DNA of 36,761 nucleotides from Ardenticatenales bacterium (GTDB lineage Bacteria; Chloroflexota; Anaerolineae; Promineifilales; UBA4811), in NCBI GenBank assembly GCA_030593075.1, contig JAUVHW010000008.1, forward strand, positions 1-36,761, written 5' to 3'. Below the pieces are notes generated by a model. It had not been told where the DNA came from and searched no databases. It saw nothing but the letters and a program-made list of their open reading frames with translations. Shown here in pieces: positions 2,912-16,783 of this stretch. The first letter of the stretch is position 1; each line of letters begins with the position of its first letter. The translations under genes and the position numbers were made by a program.

Positions 2912-4264
<1,353 letters not shown>

Positions 4265-4309
4265 CGCGTATCCGAGCACTGATAGTCACTACGCGAAGAC
4301 AGTCACAGT

Positions 4310-5287
4310 ATGAGTAGCGAGCCGCTTTTCCTGGGTATTGACCTGGGCGGCACCAAGATATTCACCGGGCTAGTCAATAGCTCCGGCGAGGTGGTCACCC
4401 AGGACTACCGAAAGACCAAGGCCAAGAGAGGCCCAGAGGCAGTCGTGCAAGGGCTGATTGCCTCCGCAGGCCAGGTGATGCAGGATGCTGGCGTGCCGGC
4501 CGAGCAGATCAGGGCGGTCGGCGTCGGTTCGCCTGGGCCGGTGGACGCTGCCGAAGGCCTGGTCGTCGCCCCTCCTAACCTGCCAGGCTGGGACCGAGTC
4601 CCGCTGCGGCAGACGATTGAGGAGGCACTCGGGATCCCCACCCACCTCGAGAACGACGCCAACGCGGCCGCCTTGGGCGAGAATGTCTTTGGCGCCGGCC
4701 GGGGCAGCAAGGAGATGATCTACATGACCGTCAGCACCGGTGTTGGTGGCGGTTTCATCTTCGGAGGCAAGCTGTATGGCGGTGCGTCTGGCGCGGCGGC
4801 CGAGGTTGGCCACATGACCATCCTGCCGCGCGGCCCGCACTGCGGCTGCGGCAACCGCGGCTGCCTGGAGGCAGTGGCATCCGGCACCGCCATCGCGCGG
4901 GAGGGCCGCGAGCTGCTGCTGAGGAATGTGCCGACGCTGATCGCCGAGCTGGCGGGAGGCGACCCTGACCTGGTCAGCGCCAAGCTGGTTGCCCAGGCCG
5001 CGCAGCAAGGGGATGCCGAGGCAGAGGAGATCATCTACGAGGCCATGAGCTATCTGGGAGTGGGAGTGGCCAATCTGGTCAACCTCCTCAACCCAGAACT
5101 CATTGTCATCGGTGGTGGGCTGACCAACATGGGCGATGCCCTCTTCGGCCCCGTGCGCCGGGCTGTAGATAGACGAACGTTCCCCATCGCCGCACAGAGA
5201 GTCCGGATTGTCCCGGCCGAATTGGGAGACCGGGTAGGGGTGCTGGGAGCGGCAGCGGTGGCGATGCAGAGAGCGAGGGTAGCATGA
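4310..5287 (+). CDS. glk: ROK-family glucokinase
   Basis: Probably phosphorylates glucose to glucose-6-phosphate with ATP; the exact sugar cannot be read from sequence. The ATP-binding DLGGTK is at residues 11-16, the catalytic Asp at about 116 in ENDANAAALGE, and the ROK zinc site is H168 with C178, C180 and C185 in HCGCGNRGCLE. E165 and H168 of EVGHM are the usual glucose-contacting residues. The length of 325 residues is typical, and there is no N-terminal helix-turn-helix, so it is a kinase rather than a ROK repressor. Its stop overlaps the prs start by the ATGA arrangement at 5284-5287, indicating translational coupling. Other ROK kinases such as fructokinase or ManNAc kinase remain possible. 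Confidence 0.9.
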   Translation: MSSEPLFLGIDLGGTKIFTGLVNSSGEVVTQDYRKTKAKRGPEAVVQGLIASAGQVMQDAGVPAEQIRAVGVGSPGPVDAAEGLVVAPPNLPGWDRVPLRQTIEEALGIPTHLENDANAAALGENVFGAGRGSKEMIYMTVSTGVGGGFIFGGKLYGGASGAAAEVGHMTILPRGPHCGCGNRGCLEAVASGTAIAREGRELLLRNVPTLIAELAGGDPDLVSAKLVAQAAQQGDAEAEEIIYEAMSYLGVGVANLVNLLNPELIVIGGGLTNMGDALFGPVRRAVDRRTFPIAAQRVRIVPAELGDRVGVLGAAAVAMQRARVA

Positions 5288-6288
5288 GCCAAGATACTGC
5301 CTTGGGCCAAGATACTGCCTTGGGCCAAGACACGCTGGATAGGCTGCTGATCTTCAGCGGCAACGCGCACCCCAGACTAGCGCACGAGATCGCCCACTAC
5401 CTGGGGCTGGAACTCGGCCCCGCAACCGCGACCAAGTTCTCCAACGACAACATCAGCGCCCACCTGGGGGTCAGCGTGCGGTCCAGACACGTTTTCATAG
5501 TCCAGCCCCTCTCACCGCCGTGCAGCGACCACTTGATGGAGTTGCTCCTGATGCTGGACGTGGCTCGAGGCGCCGGCGCCAGGAGCGTTCACGCGGTAAT
5601 CCCCTATTTCTCCTACGCACGTTCGGACAAAAAGGACGCTCCCCGCATCTCAATCGCCGCTCGCCTGGTGGCTGACCTGCTGGTTACGGCCGGGGCCACT
5701 CACGTGGTGGCGATGACACTCCACTCGCCCCAGGTCCACGGTTTTTTCAGCGTCCCGGCCGACCACCTCACGGCCCATTCGGTGTTTGTGGACTATCTGA
5801 ATGGACAGGACCTGAGCAACGCGGTCATCGTCTCGCCCGACATTGGCCACTCCAAGCGGACAGCCAACCTGGCGCGGGCTCTGGGTCTGCCGTTGGCAGC
5901 CGCGGACAAGGTACGCCAGTCTGACGATTCGGTGGTTATGTCGGGATTCATGGGCCAGGTGCGCGGAAAGTGGGCCATCATAGTAGATGACGAGATCGCC
6001 TCGGGCGCCTCGACGGTTGCCACCACGGACCTCCTCAGGAGAGAGAACGTCTCTCGCGTGACGGTGATGGTCACACACGGCCTCTTCACCGGTCCAGCCG
6101 TTGAGCGGCTCAATGCGGTGAAGGAGATCGACGAGATAGTAGTCACCAACACGGTGCCTCTACCGCCGGAGCGCCGGCCGGAGCGGCTGAAGGTACTCTC
6201 GGTGGCTCACATCTTTGGCGAAGTGATTCGCCACCACGTACTGGGCGAATCCATCGGGGCACTGTTCGAGTTCTGGCCTACGGGGTAG
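5284..6288 (+). CDS. prs: ribose-phosphate diphosphokinase (PRPP synthetase)
   Basis: Makes PRPP from ribose-5-phosphate and ATP for nucleotide, histidine and tryptophan synthesis. Visible motifs are FSNDN (residues 52-56), YARSDKKDAPRISIAARL (111-128), TLHSPQVHGFF (145-155), the flexible-loop pair K209/R211 in DKVR, and the PRPP loop VDDEIASGAST (234-244). It belongs to the FSNDN/SDKKD subgroup rather than the Bacillus FSDGE/QDRK type. The ATG overlaps the glucokinase stop by four bases. The first 17 residues are an unusual tandem repeat, (QDTALG)2 plus QDT, absent from typical family members. An internal start is possible, but no internal ATG or strong ribosome site is seen before the conserved LLIFSGN. 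Confidence 0.92.
   Translation: MSQDTALGQDTALGQDTLDRLLIFSGNAHPRLAHEIAHYLGLELGPATATKFSNDNISAHLGVSVRSRHVFIVQPLSPPCSDHLMELLLMLDVARGAGARSVHAVIPYFSYARSDKKDAPRISIAARLVADLLVTAGATHVVAMTLHSPQVHGFFSVPADHLTAHSVFVDYLNGQDLSNAVIVSPDIGHSKRTANLARALGLPLAAADKVRQSDDSVVMSGFMGQVRGKWAIIVDDEIASGASTVATTDLLRRENVSRVTVMVTHGLFTGPAVERLNAVKEIDEIVVTNTVPLPPERRPERLKVLSVAHIFGEVIRHHVLGESIGALFEFWPTG
5290..5331 (+). repeat. 18-bp in-frame tandem repeat at the start of prs
   Basis: The 18-base unit CAAGATACTGCCTTGGGC occurs twice without mismatch (5290-5307 and 5308-5325), followed by six more bases that match the first five positions of the unit. It encodes QDTALG-QDTALG-QD. The unit is a multiple of three, so copy-number changes would keep the frame. 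Confidence 0.95.
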
Positions 6289-6333: not shown

Positions 6334-7539
6334 TCAGCGCAGTAGCCAGCGGCGCAGGCGGTCGATAGCTCGGGTGCTGGCCCAGGTACTCAGGTACTCC
6401 GGCGGTCCCCCATAGCCACGTTCCTGGCTCTCCCCGGCGTCCGGTGCCGACAAGGCAAACCCAATCACCGACCGGCCGCTCTCCTCCCTTTCAACTAGCA
6501 CCGCCAACCCCAGCCGGGCCTTGGCAGCCAATCGGGCCTGTCGCGCAGCTGATTCGGCTCGTTCAGCCAGAGGAGCATCGAGACCGGTGGCCAGATCCAG
6601 CGCGGCCGCCAGTTGCTGCCAGTCAGACCCGGCAAACACCCGGCGTAGCGTCTTTGCGGCCGGCGGAGAGGCGCTGAGCCGCTCGCCAGTCACGCCGCCG
6701 GTGCCGGCTTCGGCCACTGCGACCGTCAGTTCCCTTCGCACCAGCAGGGGGAGAACCGCCTCCTCGATTGTCTCGGTCCCCTCTCCGTAGACGCTCATGC
6801 CCAGCCGGCCGCGGATGTCCCGGACAATGGGCTCGATCAGCGCCTCTGCCTCTTCGCGGGTGGCTGCCTTGGCAGCAACGCGGATGTCCGTCTGACCGGC
6901 GTGGGCCGCCAGGCCGACAGTGGGGTTGGCGAGTCGCTCCAGGTCCTGGATAGCCGCATCGATCGCGCTCTCCCCGATTCCGGCCGTGCGGAGCACGCGG
7001 GAGAGGATCACGGCCGGCGCGCCCATCTTTTCCTGCAGATAGGGGATTACGGCACTGCTGAGCATATAGGTCATCTCTTTGGGGACCCCTGGAAGGCTGA
7101 CCACACTACCCCGCTCAGTCTCGACGATAAAGCAAGGCGCCGTACCCACTGGATTCTCCAGCCCGATGGCGCCGGCCGGCACGTAGGCCTGCTGGCGGCT
7201 GTTGGGGCTCATCTTGGCCCCCCAGCGGGCGTAGCGGGCCGAAATCTGCTCCAACAAATCGGCGCGCAACTCCAGCGGGCGGCCCGTTGCCTGGGCGACT
7301 GCCTGCCGAGTCACGTCGTCCACAGTGGGTCCCAGCCCTCCGGTGGTGATAACCACGTCGGCCCGGTCGAGGGCGGCATTGACGGCGGCCGCGGTTCTTT
7401 CGACATTGTCCCCCACGGTAGTCAAGTAATAGAGGTCCAGTCCAATGTCGCGCACGGTGCGAGCGATGTGGGCCGAGTTGGTGTCCACGATGTCCCCTAG
7501 CAGCAGTTCGGTGCCAATAGTCACTATCTCAGCATTCAT
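6334..7539 (-). CDS. cinA: CinA-like protein with degenerate C-terminal amidase domain
   Basis: The N-terminal half is a clear CinA/MoaB-MogA-like domain: EIVTIGTELLLGDIVDTNS, then VITTGGLGPTVDDVT and VVSLPGVPKEM. In characterised CinA proteins this half hydrolyses ADP-ribose and the C-terminal half deamidates nicotinamide mononucleotide (PncC activity). Here the C-terminal half starts with AEAGTGGVTGERLS where the family has AESCTGG, and the later GIAGP-like block is missing, so deamidase activity is doubtful. I chose ATG at 7539 because GGAG at 7547-7550 is 7 bases upstream; an ATG at 7545 is too close to it. The gene converges on prs with only about 45 bases between stops. Length is 401 residues, normal for the family. 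Confidence 0.88.
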   Translation of the reverse strand: MNAEIVTIGTELLLGDIVDTNSAHIARTVRDIGLDLYYLTTVGDNVERTAAAVNAALDRADVVITTGGLGPTVDDVTRQAVAQATGRPLELRADLLEQISARYARWGAKMSPNSRQQAYVPAGAIGLENPVGTAPCFIVETERGSVVSLPGVPKEMTYMLSSAVIPYLQEKMGAPAVILSRVLRTAGIGESAIDAAIQDLERLANPTVGLAAHAGQTDIRVAAKAATREEAEALIEPIVRDIRGRLGMSVYGEGTETIEEAVLPLLVRRELTVAVAEAGTGGVTGERLSASPPAAKTLRRVFAGSDWQQLAAALDLATGLDAPLAERAESAARQARLAAKARLGLAVLVEREESGRSVIGFALSAPDAGESQERGYGGPPEYLSTWASTRAIDRLRRWLLR

Positions 7540-7608
7540 TCCCATTCTCCAGCCACGCCCCGGTCCGAGAATCGCGCCCGGCGACCTTCCCGATCCGGCG
7601 AAGGGAGC

Positions 7609-7637
7609 ATTCTAGCACGAACCAGAAAGGCAAGCAA
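7609..7637 (-). promoter_or_regulatory. extended -10 promoter for cinA
   Basis: Read on the minus strand, TTGCTT (7637-7632) is followed after 17 bases by TAGAAT (7614-7609). The base triplet TGC just before the -10 makes it an extended -10 element. It would start transcription near 7602, about 60 bases before the cinA start. Confidence 0.5.
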
Positions 7638-7712
7638 TTCTCGCAAATTCGCGCTCACCGGGGGATGCACGAAATGGCACCTTGCGATAACATTCCAGCC
7701 AGAGGGATGACG

Positions 7713-8912
7713 ATGAAGATCGGCATGCTGACCGACTGCTACCGGCCGGTGATCAATGGAATCACCCATTTCATCTGCCTGTGCAAACGCGAAATGGAGG
7801 CGGCCGGACATCAGGTGTGGATCTTTACCTATGGTGATCAGGATAGCGCGGATGCCGAACAGGGTGTCGTGCGATCACCAGGCATACCGTTGGCCGACAG
7901 CGGCTACTACTTTAGCCTGACCTACTCGCGCCAGGCACGAGAGAAGCTGTCAGAGATGGACGTCCTACACGCCCATCACCCGTTCTTCAGCGGCCGGATG
8001 GCGGTCCGCTATGGGCGGCGGCTTAACCTGCCCATTGTATTCACCAACCACACCCGATACGACCTGTATGCCCAGGCCTATCTCCCGGCCGTGCCGCCGG
8101 TGCTGACCGGCTACTACCTCGAGAGCTACATGCCCGCCTTTGCCCGCCGGTGCGACCTGATGATCGCTCCCTCGGCCGGGCTCAAGCAGGTCCTGTTGGA
8201 GATGGGGGTCGATCAGGAGATCGCCGTCATCCCCAACGGAATCGACCTGGAGCCACTCTACCACCCAGCCACAGCGGTGTCACGGCGAGAACTGGACATT
8301 CCGGACGATGCCACCGTACTGATCTATTGCGGCCGGTTGGGGCCCGAAAAGAACGTAGACTTGCTGCTCCAGGCCTTTGCGGGCGCGGCCCAGGCGGTTC
8401 CCAGCGCTTACCTGGTGCTGGTGGGGGGTGGTCCGGCCGAGAGCAGCATACAGGAACAGGCTGAACAGCTCTCCAGGGTCCGCTGCGTCGGCCAAGTGCC
8501 TTACGAAGAAGTGCCAGCCTATCTAGCGCTGGCCGACCTCTTTGCCACCGCCTCGGTGACCGAGGTACACCCGCTGTCGGTGATCGAGGCGCTGGCGGCC
8601 GGCCTCCCGGTGCTCGGCATCCACTCACCGGGCATCAGTGACACGGTCCGCGACACAGTGGACGGGTTCTTGACCACTCATGATCTGGCATCCTTCACCG
8701 CACTGATGGTGCGGCTGCTGCTCCAACCCGAACTGCGGGCGGCAATGGCAGCCAACGCTCGGGAGCGGAGCAGCTACTATGACATCCGGACCTGCACCGC
8801 CACGTTGTTGGACCACTACCGGTGCCTGGTCGACGATGCCCGAACGCGGTCGCCCAGGGAAGAGCTCTGGGAGACTCTGGTTCAGGAGGTCCGGCAGGTG
8901 CTGGGTGAGTAG
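7713..8912 (+). CDS. GT4-family glycosyltransferase
   Basis: A GT-B fold retaining glycosyltransferase. The N-terminal domain begins MKIGMLTDCYRPVINGI and includes AHHPFFSG and FTNHTRYDLYAQAY, typical of the group that adds glucose or mannose to diacylglycerol or phosphatidylinositol. The C-terminal donor-binding domain has YCGRLGPEKNVDLLLQAF, LVLVGGGP and the EX7E-type element in TEVHPLSVIEALAAGLPVLG. I chose ATG at 7713 because GAGGG at 7702-7706 is 6 bases upstream, whereas the ATG at 7707 directly abuts it. Glycolipid synthesis at the cytoplasmic face of the membrane is the likely role, but the acceptor and sugar are inferred. yraN overlaps its 3' end by 8 bases, so the two are probably coupled. 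Confidence 0.88.
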   Translation: MKIGMLTDCYRPVINGITHFICLCKREMEAAGHQVWIFTYGDQDSADAEQGVVRSPGIPLADSGYYFSLTYSRQAREKLSEMDVLHAHHPFFSGRMAVRYGRRLNLPIVFTNHTRYDLYAQAYLPAVPPVLTGYYLESYMPAFARRCDLMIAPSAGLKQVLLEMGVDQEIAVIPNGIDLEPLYHPATAVSRRELDIPDDATVLIYCGRLGPEKNVDLLLQAFAGAAQAVPSAYLVLVGGGPAESSIQEQAEQLSRVRCVGQVPYEEVPAYLALADLFATASVTEVHPLSVIEALAAGLPVLGIHSPGISDTVRDTVDGFLTTHDLASFTALMVRLLLQPELRAAMAANARERSSYYDIRTCTATLLDHYRCLVDDARTRSPREELWETLVQEVRQVLGE

Positions 8913-9276
8913 CGACCGGAAGCAGTTAGGGCATTGGGGAGAAGAGGCGGCCGTACGCCAGCTGGCAGCGGCCGGCCACGAGATAGTCGAGCGCAACTAC
9001 CGCTGCTCCGAAGGCGAGATGGACCTGATTGCCCGGCAAGAGGACGTCTGGGTCTTTGTGGAGGTCAAGACCCGGCGCGGGGACGCATACGGCCGGCCGG
9101 AAGACGCCGTCACCCCGGCCAAGGCGGCCCGGCTGCTGCGGGTGGCGGAGAGCTACCTGCAGGAGCGCGGCCTGGCGGACGTCGCCTGGCGAGTGGACGT
9201 AATCGCGGTGGAACTGGATTCCGGCGGCAAGCTGCTCCGGATCGAGCAGATCGAGAACGCGGTGTCCGGATGGTAG
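8905..9276 (+). CDS. yraN: YraN/UPF0102 family nuclease-like protein
   Basis: 123 residues with the UPF0102 pattern: GHWGEEAAVRQL near the N-terminus, RNYRCSEGEMDLIA, and FVEVKTRR. E38, D40, E53 and K55 form the acid-D-ExK arrangement of restriction-endonuclease-like folds. Family members are often next to rnhB or in genome-maintenance clusters, but the biochemical role is not settled. I chose GTG at 8905, which overlaps the glycosyltransferase stop by 8 bases and has GGCAGG about 6 bases upstream; the frame extends further 5' only as the shadow of the upstream gene. Its own stop overlaps the miaA start by 7 bases, so the three genes form one translationally coupled unit. Confidence 0.9.
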   Translation: MSSDRKQLGHWGEEAAVRQLAAAGHEIVERNYRCSEGEMDLIARQEDVWVFVEVKTRRGDAYGRPEDAVTPAKAARLLRVAESYLQERGLADVAWRVDVIAVELDSGGKLLRIEQIENAVSGW

Positions 9277-10322
9277 CGGACCACTCCCTCAGCCAGGACC
9301 CTGGCCCTGCGGCTGCCTCGCTGCTCGGCCCCCTGGTTGTCCTGGTCGGCCCAACGGCCGTGGGCAAGACCGAGATATCGCTAGAGTTGGCCGAAGCGGT
9401 AGAGGGCGAGATTGTCTCGGCCGATTCGCGCCAGGTCTACCGAGGGATGGACGTGGGCACCGCCAAGCCAACGCCGGCCGAGCAGCAGCGGGTCCCGCAT
9501 CACCTGGTAGACATACTGGACCCGAACCAGATACTGACGCTGGCCGAGTACCAGCGCCGGGCGTATGCCGCCATCGAGGACATCGACCGGCGGGGACGCG
9601 TACCGTTATTGGTAGGCGGCAGCGGGCAGTACGTGCGCGCGGTAGTAGAGGGATGGGGTATCCCCGAGGTGCCGCCCGACCATGCCCTGCGGACTCAGCT
9701 GGAGGCGCTGGCGGCCAAGCGCGGCGCTGCCACCCTTCACGCTCGTCTGGCCGAGCTGGACCCGGCCGCAGCCGGCCGGATCGACTATCGCAACGTGCGC
9801 CGGGTCGTCCGCGCGCTGGAAGTGATGCTGCTTACCGGCCAGCCGATCAGCGAGATCCAGACCAAAGTTCCCCCACCCTACCGGATCCTGCAGGTGGGCT
9901 TGACCCGCCCCCGGCCGGCGCTCTTTGCCCGGATCGACGGCCGGGTGGACAGGATGCTGGAAGCCGGCCTGGTGGACGAGGTGCGCGGCCTGGCTGCAGC
10001 CTGGGCGTCCGGCACAGACAGCGTAAGGGAACTCCCGGCCCTCTCGGGCCTGGGCTATCGGCAGATCGGCCTCTATTTACAGGACCAGATCACCCTGAAG
10101 GAGGCCATCCAGCTCATGCGCAAGGAAACCCGGCGTTTCGTGCGTCAGCAGGGCACTTGGTTCCGGCTGGACGACCCAGAGATACACTGGTTCGACCTGG
10201 AAGAGACAAGCGCGGAGCAGGTGATCGGCTTTGTGTCCGAGTGGCTCGCCGGCCGGACACGGGAGCCGCCGACCCAGGAGTATGAGGTGTCACCAAGGCG
10301 GCAGACCCACCCGTCAGAGTGA
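9270..10322 (+). CDS. miaA: tRNA dimethylallyltransferase
   Basis: Transfers a dimethylallyl group to N6 of adenosine-37 in tRNAs that read codons starting with U. The P-loop GPTAVGKT is at residues 27-34 and DSRQVYRGMDVGTAKP starts at D52; both are MiaA hallmarks, as are HHLVDILDP, GGSGQYVRAVVEG and the RNVRRVVRALEVM segment. The 350-residue length is a little above the usual 300-320 because of an about 20-residue N-terminal leader before the P-loop. ATG at 9270 overlaps the yraN stop and is the first methionine of the real frame; the longer open frame upstream is non-coding shadow. The C-terminus is polar and poorly conserved. Confidence 0.95.
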   Translation: MVADHSLSQDPGPAAASLLGPLVVLVGPTAVGKTEISLELAEAVEGEIVSADSRQVYRGMDVGTAKPTPAEQQRVPHHLVDILDPNQILTLAEYQRRAYAAIEDIDRRGRVPLLVGGSGQYVRAVVEGWGIPEVPPDHALRTQLEALAAKRGAATLHARLAELDPAAAGRIDYRNVRRVVRALEVMLLTGQPISEIQTKVPPPYRILQVGLTRPRPALFARIDGRVDRMLEAGLVDEVRGLAAAWASGTDSVRELPALSGLGYRQIGLYLQDQITLKEAIQLMRKETRRFVRQQGTWFRLDDPEIHWFDLEETSAEQVIGFVSEWLAGRTREPPTQEYEVSPRRQTHPSE

Positions 10323-12154: not shown

Positions 12155-12562
12155 ACCCCGTGATGTGAACTGGGGGAGGAGGCCATCAGCGATGTACATC
12201 GCTGCGAGCCTTATGTGTACGCCCAGATGATCGCCGGGCGGGATGCCCCGGCCCACGGCGAGGCCAAGAACTCCTGGCTGACCGGCACGGCCGCCTGGAA
12301 CTATGTCGCCGTCACCCAGTGGATCCTGGGCATCCGGCCGGCCCACAACGGGCTGCGGATCGCTCCCGTCATCCCCAGCGGCTGGCCTGGCTTCAAGGCC
12401 ACCCGCGTCTTTCGGGGGGTGCGGTACCAGATTACGGTCGAACGGGCGGGCGAGGGCACCACAGTCTCGCACACCGTGGACGGCCGGCCTGCCGAGGGGG
12501 AGACCGTCCCGCTACCGGCGGCCGGCACGGCCGAGGTGAGGGTGGAGGTGACCCTCAGGTGA
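12155..12562 (+). pseudogene. GH94 phosphorylase C-terminal remnant
   Basis: The frame is open from 12155 to the TGA at 12560-12562. From about 12185 it reads like the end of GH94 cellobiose/chitobiose phosphorylases: HRCEPYVYAQMIAG, HGEAKNSWLTGTAAWNYVA, and ILGIRPAHNGLRIAPVIPSGW in adjoining pieces. Full enzymes have about 800 residues; only the last 125 or so survive. The catalytic acid and phosphate site lie in the missing part, so the fragment cannot be an active phosphorylase. An in-frame TGA at 12152 and the AOR stop at 12121 bound the truncation point. A GTG at 12215 could start a 115-residue peptide, but I see no good ribosome site. It looks like a deletion or rearrangement scar. Confidence 0.82.
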
Positions 12563-12601: not shown

Positions 12602-12722
12602 GTAGGCGCGTTCACCGGCTGGCGACTGAAAGACCAGGCGGATAGGGATAGCCACCGGGGTGCTTGGTGTAGCGTGGGCAACGCGCTACCTGAGTTCTGA
12701 CCGGTACGTAGGAAGCGGCAAA

Positions 12723-13337
12723 GTGCTCGAGAGAAGAGGGATCATTGACCTGGTACTGGCAACCCGCACAGCGGATGTGTTGCTTCCGCTGGGTCTTGCG
12801 CTTCTCCTTGGCGCGAGCGCCTGTGCGCGCAGAGAGCCCCCAAGCGAACTGGATCCCGAAGGCACTGGTGTAACACGAATCCAGCCCACCCAGACCGATC
12901 TGCCGTTCGATACCATTGAGAAGGAAATGGGCATCAGGCTTGGTGCAGAGCCATACGAGGCAGAAGATCCCCTGCTAATTGTTGTGTCAGCCCGCGAGCA
13001 GGTTTCTGCACTGAAGCCCAGCCTGTCCCCCGAAGCTCAATCTGAACTCAGCAGCACCAAATTCGGTGACTACTTTGTTGTCGCTGTCTTCCAGGGCCGC
13101 AAGCCCACATTCGACTATGGGGTTGATATTCAACGCGTTGTATTGCAGGACGAGACGATCAAAGTGTTTGCCGAGTTCGTCGAGCCTACTGAGGGCCAAA
13201 TGCTGCATCTTGCCGATTCCTCGCCCTATCACGCTGTGCGAGTCGAAAGGTGCCAGGGCCTCGCAGATAGGGAGATCCAGTTCATCTTGATTGCCAACGG
13301 ACGGGAGACTGCCAGCAGCGTGCACCGACTTCGTTGA
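12723..13337 (+). CDS. PrcB-like lipoprotein
   Basis: 204 residues starting at GTG 12723, chosen because AGGAAG at 12710-12715 is 7 bases upstream. A hydrophobic stretch (residues 18-33) ends in GASAC, a plausible though imperfect lipobox with C34 as the lipidated Cys. Residues about 110-170 form a compact beta-rich domain: DYFVVAVFQGRKPTFDYGVDI, then V..F.EF..P and SPYHAVRVER. This pattern resembles the PrcB C-terminal domain, named after the Treponema denticola lipoprotein that stabilises the subtilisin-like protease PrtP (dentilisin). The neighbour, 46 bases downstream, is an S8 protease, which supports that reading. The assignment rests on pattern and context, not on an alignment. A paralogue is encoded beyond the protease. 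Confidence 0.68.
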   Translation: MLERRGIIDLVLATRTADVLLPLGLALLLGASACARREPPSELDPEGTGVTRIQPTQTDLPFDTIEKEMGIRLGAEPYEAEDPLLIVVSAREQVSALKPSLSPEAQSELSSTKFGDYFVVAVFQGRKPTFDYGVDIQRVVLQDETIKVFAEFVEPTEGQMLHLADSSPYHAVRVERCQGLADREIQFILIANGRETASSVHRLR

Positions 13338-13383
13338 GGAGGTTCTGCGTGGGTGGTCTCATCATGAAAGTAGGGTGAAGGTC

Positions 13384-15558
13384 ATGAGAAGGTCAAACCA
13401 GTTTCTGATGATACTCGTTGCCATTCTGGCCGTTGCGCTTGCGGTTGTCGCACGAACGGAGTCGTCTGTGGTGCATGGGACTTGGAGCACCAATCTGGAT
13501 TCAAGGTACAATGTGGCCTCTGGTGGTGCCTATCCGGCGGATCAGCAGATGTCCGCCTTGGCGTCCCCCCTTCCCCCGCCGCCACCGGCACCGCGAGAGC
13601 TGACCCAAATCGCCCTTGAGCATGTCGCTGATAGGGAAGGAGCACGTCTGACCGACCTGGTTGCGGTCAACGAGCACAGCCGCAGCTACGCGCTGACGGG
13701 GCAAGATCTGTGGGCGGTGACAGTGCTGGACCGTCAAACAGCACACTTCCATCATGTGCTGATAAACCCAGCCAATCGAAGTGTTGCGGACCCGGAAGCC
13801 GTGAGCCGCTCTGAGCGTGAGGCCCACCTGGCACGCTACGGCAAGCTGGAGCCCGCGCTTCGCATGCTCCTGCAAAGCAAGGACCGGGACGATGAAGTAA
13901 AGGTGATGATCTGGGCGACGCCCATTGACCTGGAATCTGTTCTGGACCAACTTGGTGCGATGCATCCGGAGATGAGACATGACTCAGCCCGGCCCATGGA
14001 CGTGAGCGATCCCAGTCTCTCAGAAGCCATCGCCGCTGACTATCGAGAGCTACTGGCTGCGGCACACCTGGCCAAGGTGCAGGAGGTGACGAGATCTCTC
14101 GAATCTCAGGGCTACGAGGTTACCAGGTACCGCTTCATCCCTGCGGTGGTAGCCGAATTGCCCAAGTCCACTATTCACCAGCTAGCTCAGCGAGAGGATG
14201 TGTCTTCCATCTACATCACAGGAAGGGCTATCCAGCCCGCATTGGATTCCGCGGTGCCCACGGTCCGCGCACCTGAGGTCTGGGCGAGAGGCATTGACGG
14301 CAGCGGCGTTCGAATCGCCGTTGTCGAAGACGGCAAAGTGGAGAATCATCAGGGTTTGAATGTGGTTGCCACACGTACTATCACGTTGGGGGTCACCAAT
14401 CACGCAACCTATGTGGCAGGGGTTGCGGCCCTGGATCACCCGAGTTGGCCTGCCTACAGGGGCGTTGCACCCGATGCCGGCATCGTCAGCGCCGCTACGT
14501 ATGGTAGCAGTGATGATGTAGTGGAGGCTATTGAATTCGCCCTGATTGAGGGAGTCGGTGTCATCAACAGCAGTTTCTCAGTGAGCAGTGAGGACGATGA
14601 CATGCACGAACTAGATAGGGTGTATGACTACTTTGCCAGGTACGTTTGGCTGTCAATGCCGACTGGTGCAGGTAACATGGAAGCAGGCAATCACACCGGA
14701 ACACCGGGCAAGGCATACAACGTCATCACGGTGGGCGCTTTCGATGATCACAATGACCCCAGTTGGGCACACGATTCCATGCGCACAAGCTCCGCCTACA
14801 GGAATCCCAAGACAGACGATGGGACTTATGGTGATCGGGAGAAGCCAGAGGTGGTGGCCGTTGGCGCGGACGTTGTGGTATTGGGCACAAATGGGGATTG
14901 GGTGAGTGTTGCGGGGACCAGCATTGCGACGCCTCAGGTCAGTGGCATGGTGGCGTTGTTAATGCAGCGCGACAGCATGCTGCGTTTCTGGCCAGAGGCT
15001 GTCAGGGCCATCATCATGGCTTCTGCCATGCACAATATCGAGGGACCCAGTATCATGCGAGTAGATGGCCTTGACGACAGGGACGGCGCTGGTGGTATCG
15101 TTGCTGACCGGGGCGATGTCATCGCGCTGACGCGTGGAGACTATGGCAGCACATGCCTCCTGCCCTGCTGGTGGGGCGACACCATTGGCAGCCAGTCGTT
15201 TCCGGTTGGCACCTACCGCTACTACACTTTTACGGCGAGCGCTGACGCTCTCGTGCCCGTCGTTATCGCCTGGGATTCAGCTCCCGCCGACGATTATAGC
15301 ACCGACCCGTTGAAAACGAACTTGGATCTGCTCCTCCTTGATCCCGATGGACAGCCTCTCGACGGCGTAGGTGGATACTCCGCCAGTTGGGACAACAGCT
15401 ACGAGATTGCCGAGTTCATGAGCCGCAGAGCCGGCAATTACCGGATTGGAGTCTACAAGCATAGTGCCGAGGAAGACTCGAACTCGCTAGGGGTGGCTTG
15501 GACGCAACGACTAATGCCATACAAAGTCAACCTTCCATTGTGTCTTAAGGAAGCATGA
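13384..15558 (+). CDS. secreted subtilisin-like (S8) serine protease with C-terminal LPL tail
   Basis: 724 residues. Residues 7-23 are a hydrophobic signal or anchor. Residues about 190-290 look like an I9-type propeptide (PKSTIHQLAQREDVSSIYIT). The catalytic domain has H340 in NHATYVAGVAA, oxyanion N431 in TGAGNMEAGN and nucleophile S513 in AGTSIATPQVSGMVALL. The Asp block reads IAVVEDGKVE (E315-D316) where S8 enzymes have DTG or DSG, so the Asp is shifted or replaced by one position. Residues about 610-705 form a pre-peptidase C-terminal (PPC)-like beta domain. The last residues are VNLPLCLKEA. I chose ATG at 13384 because it starts the signal sequence; the longer frame is non-coding. It is flanked on both sides by PrcB-like genes. 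It probably acts outside the cell or at its surface; substrates are unknown. Confidence 0.88.
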   Translation: MRRSNQFLMILVAILAVALAVVARTESSVVHGTWSTNLDSRYNVASGGAYPADQQMSALASPLPPPPPAPRELTQIALEHVADREGARLTDLVAVNEHSRSYALTGQDLWAVTVLDRQTAHFHHVLINPANRSVADPEAVSRSEREAHLARYGKLEPALRMLLQSKDRDDEVKVMIWATPIDLESVLDQLGAMHPEMRHDSARPMDVSDPSLSEAIAADYRELLAAAHLAKVQEVTRSLESQGYEVTRYRFIPAVVAELPKSTIHQLAQREDVSSIYITGRAIQPALDSAVPTVRAPEVWARGIDGSGVRIAVVEDGKVENHQGLNVVATRTITLGVTNHATYVAGVAALDHPSWPAYRGVAPDAGIVSAATYGSSDDVVEAIEFALIEGVGVINSSFSVSSEDDDMHELDRVYDYFARYVWLSMPTGAGNMEAGNHTGTPGKAYNVITVGAFDDHNDPSWAHDSMRTSSAYRNPKTDDGTYGDREKPEVVAVGADVVVLGTNGDWVSVAGTSIATPQVSGMVALLMQRDSMLRFWPEAVRAIIMASAMHNIEGPSIMRVDGLDDRDGAGGIVADRGDVIALTRGDYGSTCLLPCWWGDTIGSQSFPVGTYRYYTFTASADALVPVVIAWDSAPADDYSTDPLKTNLDLLLLDPDGQPLDGVGGYSASWDNSYEIAEFMSRRAGNYRIGVYKHSAEEDSNSLGVAWTQRLMPYKVNLPLCLKEA

Positions 15559-15920
15559 TCACAAATAGGTTCGCAGGCGACTGAGTGAGGCCTGGTCCTG
15601 TGTCATCGGGCGGCCCCGAGGCGAGTTTCGTTGCCCACGAGCCGATACGCACAACTCTCGAATTGTCACGGCAAAGCCTGCTGAGGGACAGAACAACCAC
15701 CCTGGGCAGAACACCGTCTGCTAGTCATGCCAGCGCCCGCCTTCGCCGCCGAGAATGCTCTTGGACGACAGCCTGGAATTCTAGGTGGCTGTGCGGCCTA
15801 GCCTGTGGAGGTCGCGAAGGACTTCCGTCCCAGCATCAGCGCGGCCACAGGAACCATGCTGCAGGCCCACCAAGCGGCGCTCATTGCGCTGCCAGGATCG
15901 GCGGACGTTGCGGCGTTCTC
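15559..15920. other. spacer without a convincing gene between protease and second PrcB-like ORF
   Basis: About 360 bases. All three forward frames contain only short or arginine/serine-rich translations that look non-coding. One frame (about 15787-15923) reads PVEVAKDFRPSISAATGTML and then HQAALIALPG before a stop; this looks protein-like but I do not recognise it. It may be the decayed 5' part of the following ORF or an unrelated remnant. No clear promoter or terminator was found. Confidence 0.4.
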
Positions 15921-16502
15921 ATGAGCATGTCCCAACTGCCGAGGCTCGTCCTCTCTCGCGAATCCGCGCCCGCTCTACCACTGCGACGCAACGTGTGGGG
16001 CAGCGACACCGGCCGCGAGTACGACGCGGATGAGCCTGGCCTCGCCGTCATTGTCAATCCGGAACAAGCTAGCCAGGCGGAAGAATGGGCTAACCTGCAC
16101 GCCCAGGCCAAACTGCGAGCACTGGACTATGATGCATACCTGGCCCTGGTCGCGTTTCAAGGATTGAAGCCAAGCAGCGAATACGGCGTTGAGATTGCCC
16201 GTATCACGCGGCTGGGAAACACGGTCAACGTATACGCCCGTTTCGACCGACCTGAGCCACGCCAGGGGGTGGCCGATTTCATCATGTACCCATACCATCT
16301 AGTGAAGGTGGAGAAGGCCGGCGACTGGGGCCAGATGACGTTCAACCTGGTAGTGGATGGCAGAGTGGTGGCTACACTACAGCCCGCTACCGTGAACCCT
16401 GCGCCACAATGCACGCTGCCAGCGCCGCCAACCTCAGCCGATAGAGAACGGCCGATTGACACGACCGGCTCGGCCGGTATAATCCCCCACACAACAGAAT
16501 AG
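15921..16502 (+). CDS. second PrcB-like protein, N-terminus doubtful, possibly decayed
   Basis: 193 residues from ATG 15921. Residues about 70-140 align by eye with the lipoprotein upstream of the protease: DAYLALVAFQGLKPSSEYGVE, then VNVYARFDRPEP and YPYHLVKVEK. The segment YDADEPGLAVIVNPEQA also matches its partner's pre-domain region. Unlike that paralogue, there is no signal peptide or lipobox in this frame; the frame is open back to 15585, but the translation there is Arg/Ser-rich and not convincing. There is no good ribosome site. So either the N-terminus was lost (pseudogene) or the protein stays in the cytosol. The 3' end contains the valS promoter, which suggests the tail after about residue 160 is not under strong constraint. 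Confidence 0.5.
   Translation: MSMSQLPRLVLSRESAPALPLRRNVWGSDTGREYDADEPGLAVIVNPEQASQAEEWANLHAQAKLRALDYDAYLALVAFQGLKPSSEYGVEIARITRLGNTVNVYARFDRPEPRQGVADFIMYPYHLVKVEKAGDWGQMTFNLVVDGRVVATLQPATVNPAPQCTLPAPPTSADRERPIDTTGSAGIIPHTTE
16456..16483 (+). promoter_or_regulatory. consensus sigma70 promoter for the valS T-box leader
   Basis: TTGACA at 16456-16461 and TATAAT at 16478-16483 are both perfect consensus hexamers with a 16-base spacer. Transcription would begin near 16490 and run into the T-box leader. The promoter lies inside the 3' end of the upstream PrcB-like reading frame. Confidence 0.8.
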
Positions 16503-16783
16503 CGTCTCCCTCCGGGAGGAGTAGGCGGCCTGAGCACTGGTAGAGACGGAGCGGCCACAGGCTGAAAGCCCCCACAGCCGCCCACCGCCGAACGTCGCCC
16601 GGATTGCCTGCCAAAGAAAGCCGCTCCGGCGGTAAGTAGACTGGCACGGGTGAGCCCGTTACAGCGAAGCCCGGATGATGGTCGGGGCGTGAGAGCGCCG
16701 GCCCGGAAACGGCCGGCGAATTGAGGTGGTACCGCGGAAGGTGTGCCCTTTCGTCCTCATAGGGACGAAAGGGCTTCTTTTCT
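16503..16783 (+). promoter_or_regulatory. T-box riboswitch controlling valS
   Basis: A tRNA-sensing leader. The T-box core AGGTGGTACCGCGG lies at 16724-16737, the sequence that pairs with the uncharged tRNA acceptor end and forms the antiterminator. Upstream is a perfect 8-bp stem, 16696-16703 with 16711-16718 (Stem III position), and a Stem I-like region with GGAGTAGG near 16516 and GGCTGAAAGCC near 16560. GTC at 16594-16596 in GAACGTCG is the likely valine specifier codon, fitting the downstream valS; this assignment was made by eye. In the family, uncharged tRNA-Val stabilises the antiterminator and switches valS on. Confidence 0.88.
16745..16783 (+). terminator. T-box conditional terminator
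   Basis: A 12-bp perfect stem (16745-16756 with 16763-16774), a 6-base loop and the U-rich run TTCTTTTCT at 16775-16783 make a strong intrinsic terminator directly before valS. It competes with the antiterminator that contains the T-box core. Confidence 0.9.

Follow-up and report, generated by a model that had tools for sequence, protein, structure and literature searches.

The closest described relative of the system reported here is dentilisin of Treponema denticola, which comprises PrcB, PrcA and PrtP. In that organism PrcB interacts with PrtP and, together with PrcA1, has been proposed to anchor the complex, and a non-polar deletion of prcB resulted in loss of the PrtP protein though prtP was transcribed (PMC8167434). 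PrtP is acylated and has an Asp203-His258-Ser447 triad, and PrcB was considered in the same 2021 paper to be without homologues outside oral Treponema (PMC8167434). Use of a glutamate is known from the S53 sedolisins, which have a Glu-Asp-Ser arrangement (PMC9549277). Among subtilases with an Asp-type triad, ProN-Tk-SP of Thermococcus kodakarensis and KP-43 join an S8 domain to a C-terminal beta domain, and Tk-SP also has a propeptide. Subtilases with a Glu-His-Ser triad were reportedly proposed among novel subsets of the family by Siezen, Renckens and Boekhorst in 2007. We know of no lipoprotein partner for these Glu-His-Ser subtilases, nor, to our knowledge, is there one for ProN-Tk-SP or KP-43. 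A search of the open literature found no paper dealing with Glu-His-Ser subtilases or with PrcB from any genus but Treponema.

The locus studied here is on contig JAUVHW010000008.1 of an Ardenticatenales bacterium (GCA_030593075.1), a stretch of 36,761 nt that was analyzed whole and is referred to as the window. The cassette under study occupies positions 12,723-16,502 and has, on the plus strand, a PrcB-like gene (PB1), an S8 protease gene and a second PrcB-like ORF (PB2), so that both PrcB-like ORFs flank the S8 gene (Table 1). To its left, the remnant of a GH94/GH65C phosphorylase gene lies between an aldehyde ferredoxin oxidoreductase gene and PB1. Directly downstream of PB2 are the perfect promoter, T-box leader and terminator of valS, all within 16456-16774.

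Table 1. Features in and around the cassette (window coordinates).
Feature	Position	Strand	Basis
Phosphorylase remnant, GH94/GH65C-type, final 115 codons, 5'-truncated, outside the system	12215..12562	+	Pfam GH94 profile 383-420/420 and GH65C
PB1, PrcB-like lipoprotein	12723..13337 (ORF 12660-13337)	+	Likely GTG start at 12723; PrcB_C domain 13077-13247
S8 protease, Glu-type clade, secreted, 724 aa	13384..15558 (ORF 13291-15558)	+	Pfam S8, structure prediction, tree
E315 codon, at the catalytic Asp place (D32 of subtilisin)	14326..14328	+	Aligned with subtilisin Carlsberg and S1P
H340 codon, catalytic His	14401..14403	+	Invariant in alignments
N431 codon, oxyanion-hole Asn	14674-14676	+	Invariant in alignments
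S513 codon, catalytic Ser, in GTSIATP	14920..14922	+	Invariant in alignments
PB2, PrcB-like domain remnant	16002..16379, in ORF 15585-16502	+	PrcB_C 16146-16313, Pfam E 1.2e-9
valS promoter, sigma-70-type consensus TTGACA-16-TATAAT, within the PB2 ORF tail	16456..16483	+	Sequence, 12/12
valS T-box leader, right border of the cassette	16505..16761	+	Rfam RF00230, 69.3 bits, E 4.2e-15, under the 93-bit gathering score
Terminator of the valS leader	16745-16774	+	Sequence

The initial annotation, which had proposed a dentilisin-like cassette, held that both small ORFs encode PrcB-like proteins. Profile searches bore this out at the level of the domain, as each ORF matched Pfam PrcB_C (PF14343) with an E-value of 1.2e-9, at 38.7 bits for PB1 and 38.6 bits for PB2 (curated cut-off 24 bits). 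A profile search of the whole 3.86 Mb genome (422 contigs) identified only these two PrcB_C places, with PB1 scoring 41.5 bits. The signal peptide of PB1 ends in the expected lipobox, LLLGASA/C (Cys codon 12822-12824), the protein contains an LPFDTIE element, and exactly 46 bases separate its stop (13337) from the ATG of the protease (13384), in agreement with the gap given in that annotation. The predicted structure of PB1 was poor (pLDDT 51); Foldseek with this model returned no significant match, and profile searches identified no PDB relative of PB1.

Analyses of the protein encoded by the middle gene confirmed it as a subtilisin-like protease with a signal peptide. The Peptidase_S8 match had 91.8 bits (Pfam cut-off 21.8; E 6.1e-26 to 7.4e-26) and was accompanied by a weak match to PPC. 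AlphaFold predicted (mean pLDDT 60) a signal helix, an N-terminal domain, a prodomain-like beta-alpha-beta segment (~168-278), the catalytic domain (307-555) and a C-terminal beta domain (~595-706), and the nearest solved structure to this model was ProN-Tk-SP (Foldseek, 1.5e-24). The signal region contains no Cys and no lipobox.

Alignment to subtilisin Carlsberg and site-1 protease placed a Glu, within the motif VVEDG, at the position of the catalytic Asp. This residue, E315, was invariant together with H340, N431 and S513 both in an alignment of the paired proteases described below and in an alignment of homologues from Bacteroidota, Pseudomonadota, Actinomycetota, Gemmatimonadota and one archaeal MAG. 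The domain score and the His, Asn and Ser motifs are those of Peptidase family S8, and the Glu at the catalytic Asp position, which is conserved in the clade with one Asp member, is the feature of the Glu-His-Ser subtilases. In the protease tree the Glu-type S8 proteins were all on one side of a branch with 100/100 support, and rows labelled as Asp inside this clade were truncated or gapped with a single exception. That exception, L161 (G405, 3941-5437, minus strand), has a true Asp (IAILDIGNV) within the clade, an apparent reversion. The HGTHVAG motif usual around the catalytic His is eroded in the Glu clade to HATYVAG, HTTRVAS and others. The window protease is probably active, via a Glu-His-Ser triad.

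The locus thus shares with dentilisin a PrcB_C lipoprotein whose gene precedes, in the same operon, that of a secreted, C-terminally extended S8 protease. However, prcA lies between prcB and prtP in dentilisin, whereas the 46 bases between PB1 and the protease gene leave no PrcA here, as had been observed at the outset. In addition, PrtP is an acylated Asp-His-Ser enzyme, whereas the window protease has E315-H340-S513 and no lipobox. The NCBIfam equivalog for dentilisin PrcB (NF033596, cut-off 125 bits) did not match PB1 and gave 13 bits for PB2. By the features tested, the proposal of a dentilisin-like complex was therefore not upheld, and the system plausibly works like the PrcB-PrtP pair. 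The window protease shares with the Glu-His-Ser subset reportedly proposed in 2007 the S8 fold and an equivalent Glu in place of the catalytic Asp. Like the sedolisins it would have a Glu acting in a subtilisin-like fold, but it retains the catalytic His. It resembles ProN-Tk-SP and KP-43 in its C-terminal beta domain and differs from them in lacking their Asp-type triad.

The second half of the claim about two flanking PrcB-like proteins did not hold, as PB2 is not an intact gene. The similarity of PB2 to its best relative, in L103 (45% identity), extended only over codons 140-265 of the 305-codon ORF, beginning ~18 residues past the lipid-bearing Cys of the L103 protein and stopping five residues short of its C-terminus. 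There is no signal peptide or lipobox for PB2, and no upstream reading frame contains a signal peptide. Coding-like codon-position composition was found in this region only from ~15945 to 16388, and the final ~40 codons of the ORF overlap the valS promoter and end at the start of the T-box leader. Based on the limits of homology, the missing signal peptide, the coding composition and the promoter-overlapping tail, the most fitting reading of PB2 is that of a relic or, at most, of a domain in the cytoplasm. Its truncation at both ends led us to reject an operon of three intact PrcB, S8 and PrcB genes, and makes the three-gene symmetry weaker than it had looked. We likewise rejected the idea that a frameshift had put the signal peptide of PB2 into a different frame, as none was found there.

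To place the locus among its relatives, we sampled genomes for PrcB_C, which yielded 15 of 301 across the phylum and 33 of 396 across the class, and scanned the neighborhoods with HMMs built from the sequences of this analysis. A pair was counted where an S8 gene lay on the same strand no more than 600 bases from a PrcB gene. Seventeen such loci were found in the class, in different genera, against ~0.14 expected by chance (38 PrcB places and 336 S8 genes in 162 Mb). The pairing of a PrcB-domain lipoprotein with a secreted S8 protease, as proposed in the initial annotation, is therefore a recurrent feature of the class, and neither result named there as refuting the proposal, a lack of PrcB-profile hits or of adjacency to S8 genes in relatives, was obtained. 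In the 35 PrcB-bearing class genomes, PrcB adjoined 15 of 17 Glu-type S8s and two of ~319 other S8s (Fisher p = 4e-22); since these genomes were picked for PrcB, the comparison is one between S8 types inside them and gives no pair frequency. A search from the S8 side found 21 readable Glu-type loci, of which 16 had an adjoining PrcB, a fraction that is not selection-free because the search alignment was built from paired proteases. Most of the loci newly found in this way had no PrcB, and several of those were close to contig ends; L160 had a PrcB neighbor though the search from the PrcB side had missed it.

The two partners also diverged together. Over 15 pairs, PrcB distances and S8 distances were correlated (Spearman 0.68, permutation p = 1e-4), a value to which the common descent of the genomes contributes. 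A properly placed lipobox was present in all paired PrcBs of the phylum with a readable N-terminus, PB2 excepted, and the paired S8s with a readable N-terminus had ordinary signal peptides with no lipobox. Together, these data indicate that the association of PrcB with S8 is real and conserved, and suggest that lipoprotein-protease pairs of this sort are much commoner than described.

Other arrangements were also observed. One of the 17 class loci, L109, repeats the sandwich, with a PrcB, an S8 and then more PrcBs. Four tandem genes for PrcB-like lipoproteins lie near a contig end in L117 (G624, 6472-9206, minus strand), with no S8 in view. The genes for a D-type S8, a fusion of FAD reductase and polyprenyl synthase, and a PrcB-like lipoprotein form a conserved cluster in L096 and L097, which are from different families; these two were left out of the pair count because the fusion gene separates the S8 from the PrcB. 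Inside the phylum and outside the class no pair shared a strand, a convergent arrangement was found once (L055), and many or most PrcB_C lipoproteins were without an S8 neighbor. Outside the phylum, PrcB genes were found in one of 18 sampled loci, which is the whole basis for a spread beyond it. In that locus (L044, a Thiotrichaceae MAG contig, 7810-9448), two near-identical PrcB-like genes are directly 3' of a Glu-type S8, and their signal peptides have no lipobox.

The PrcB tree indicated that the usual partner and the intact lipoprotein beside the window protease are not orthologues. PB2 clustered with the PrcBs upstream of Glu-type S8s in L103, L160 and L113 (support 98/93), and PB1 with the PrcB-like protein of L123 (support 100/99; 44% identity to PB1). 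Given these placements, we also rejected a recent duplication of PB1 as the origin of PB2. No Glu-type S8 match was found in the L123 genome, the PrcB of which is an S8-less orphan, and PB1-like proteins can therefore exist without such a protease. The simplest story is that PB2, the decayed remains of a more typical partner gene, was replaced by PB1 as a second, intact partner paralogue, and PB1 may instead have some other role.

We think it probable, on balance, that PB1 and the S8 gene constitute an operon of two genes, one for a secreted Glu-triad subtilase and the other for a lipoprotein by which the subtilase is stabilized and tethered. The protease would be exported by its type I signal peptide, fold with its own N-terminal prodomain and cleave by the Glu-His-Ser triad. 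PB1 would be lipid-anchored outside the membrane, where it would bind the protease, keep it stable while or after it is exported and retain it on the cell surface, by analogy with PrcB and PrtP in T. denticola. The part of this proposal that concerns tethering has to be set against the C-terminus of the protease (15520-15555), VNLPLCLKEA, a degenerate form of a VYLPLVLKN-like tail. Tails of this kind are frequent at the ends of secreted proteins, with many of the proteases considered here among them, in L103, L104, L110, L113, L160, L163, L099, L096 and L060, and were found in 15 of 1182 ORFs of 200 or more residues, with 0.13 expected from internal occurrence. The tail is possibly a surface-sorting signal, and if so it could attach the proteases to the surface without PrcB, which counts against tethering by PrcB.

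A small dedicated partner whose gene adjoins that of a secreted protease might also be an inhibitor, or self-protection factor, that caps the protease at the membrane and spares the surface proteins of the producer. The expansion of paralogues, several in L109 and four in L117, is as in changing inhibitor-target pairs, and PrcB genes without an S8 exist. However, the sole PrcB to have been studied was needed for the PrtP protein and was not inhibitory (PMC8167434), and neither profiles nor the low-confidence fold model gave any likeness to known inhibitor structures; we regard this explanation as unlikely. The replacement of the catalytic Asp throughout the clade and the erosion of HGTHVAG raise a different question, that of whether the Glu-type S8s are pseudoproteases or near-inactive binding or structural proteins for which PrcB is a surface anchor. 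Against this, the His, the oxyanion Asn and the Ser of GTSxAxP are invariant across many phyla, Glu retains a carboxylate, and L161 has an Asp, as expected if the acid matters. We therefore consider loss of activity very unlikely.

It could further be argued that the adjacency is incidental, with PrcB_C lipoproteins being general surface proteins and the cassette a remnant of gene shuffling. The decay of PB2, the truncated GH94 gene just upstream and the PrcB_C genes outside the class, mostly without an S8 neighbor, are in keeping with such a history. Nevertheless, the number of kept pairs in different genera far exceeds the chance expectation, the pairs largely involve one S8 clade and the partners have diverged in correlation. 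Incidental adjacency is strongly disfavored by these observations, and we give it the least credence of all. Our preferred reading is still that of a protease with a stabilizing and tethering lipoprotein.

Until now PrcB was regarded as exclusive to treponemes of the mouth and was familiar only from the context of a single virulence protease. With its S8 pairing also conserved in other bacteria, it becomes a general module of lipoprotein and protease, open to study without a pathogen, and a predicted partner is now at hand for the Glu-type subtilases, on which there has been hardly any work. More tentatively, we speculate that PrcB lipoproteins may be dedicated chaperone-anchors of the whole Glu-His-Ser subtilase clade. 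If this speculation is correct, they would constitute, together with these subtilases, a so far undescribed system of two components for proteolysis at the surface, a counterpart of dentilisin with a different catalytic triad, that runs through the class and into the Gammaproteobacteria.
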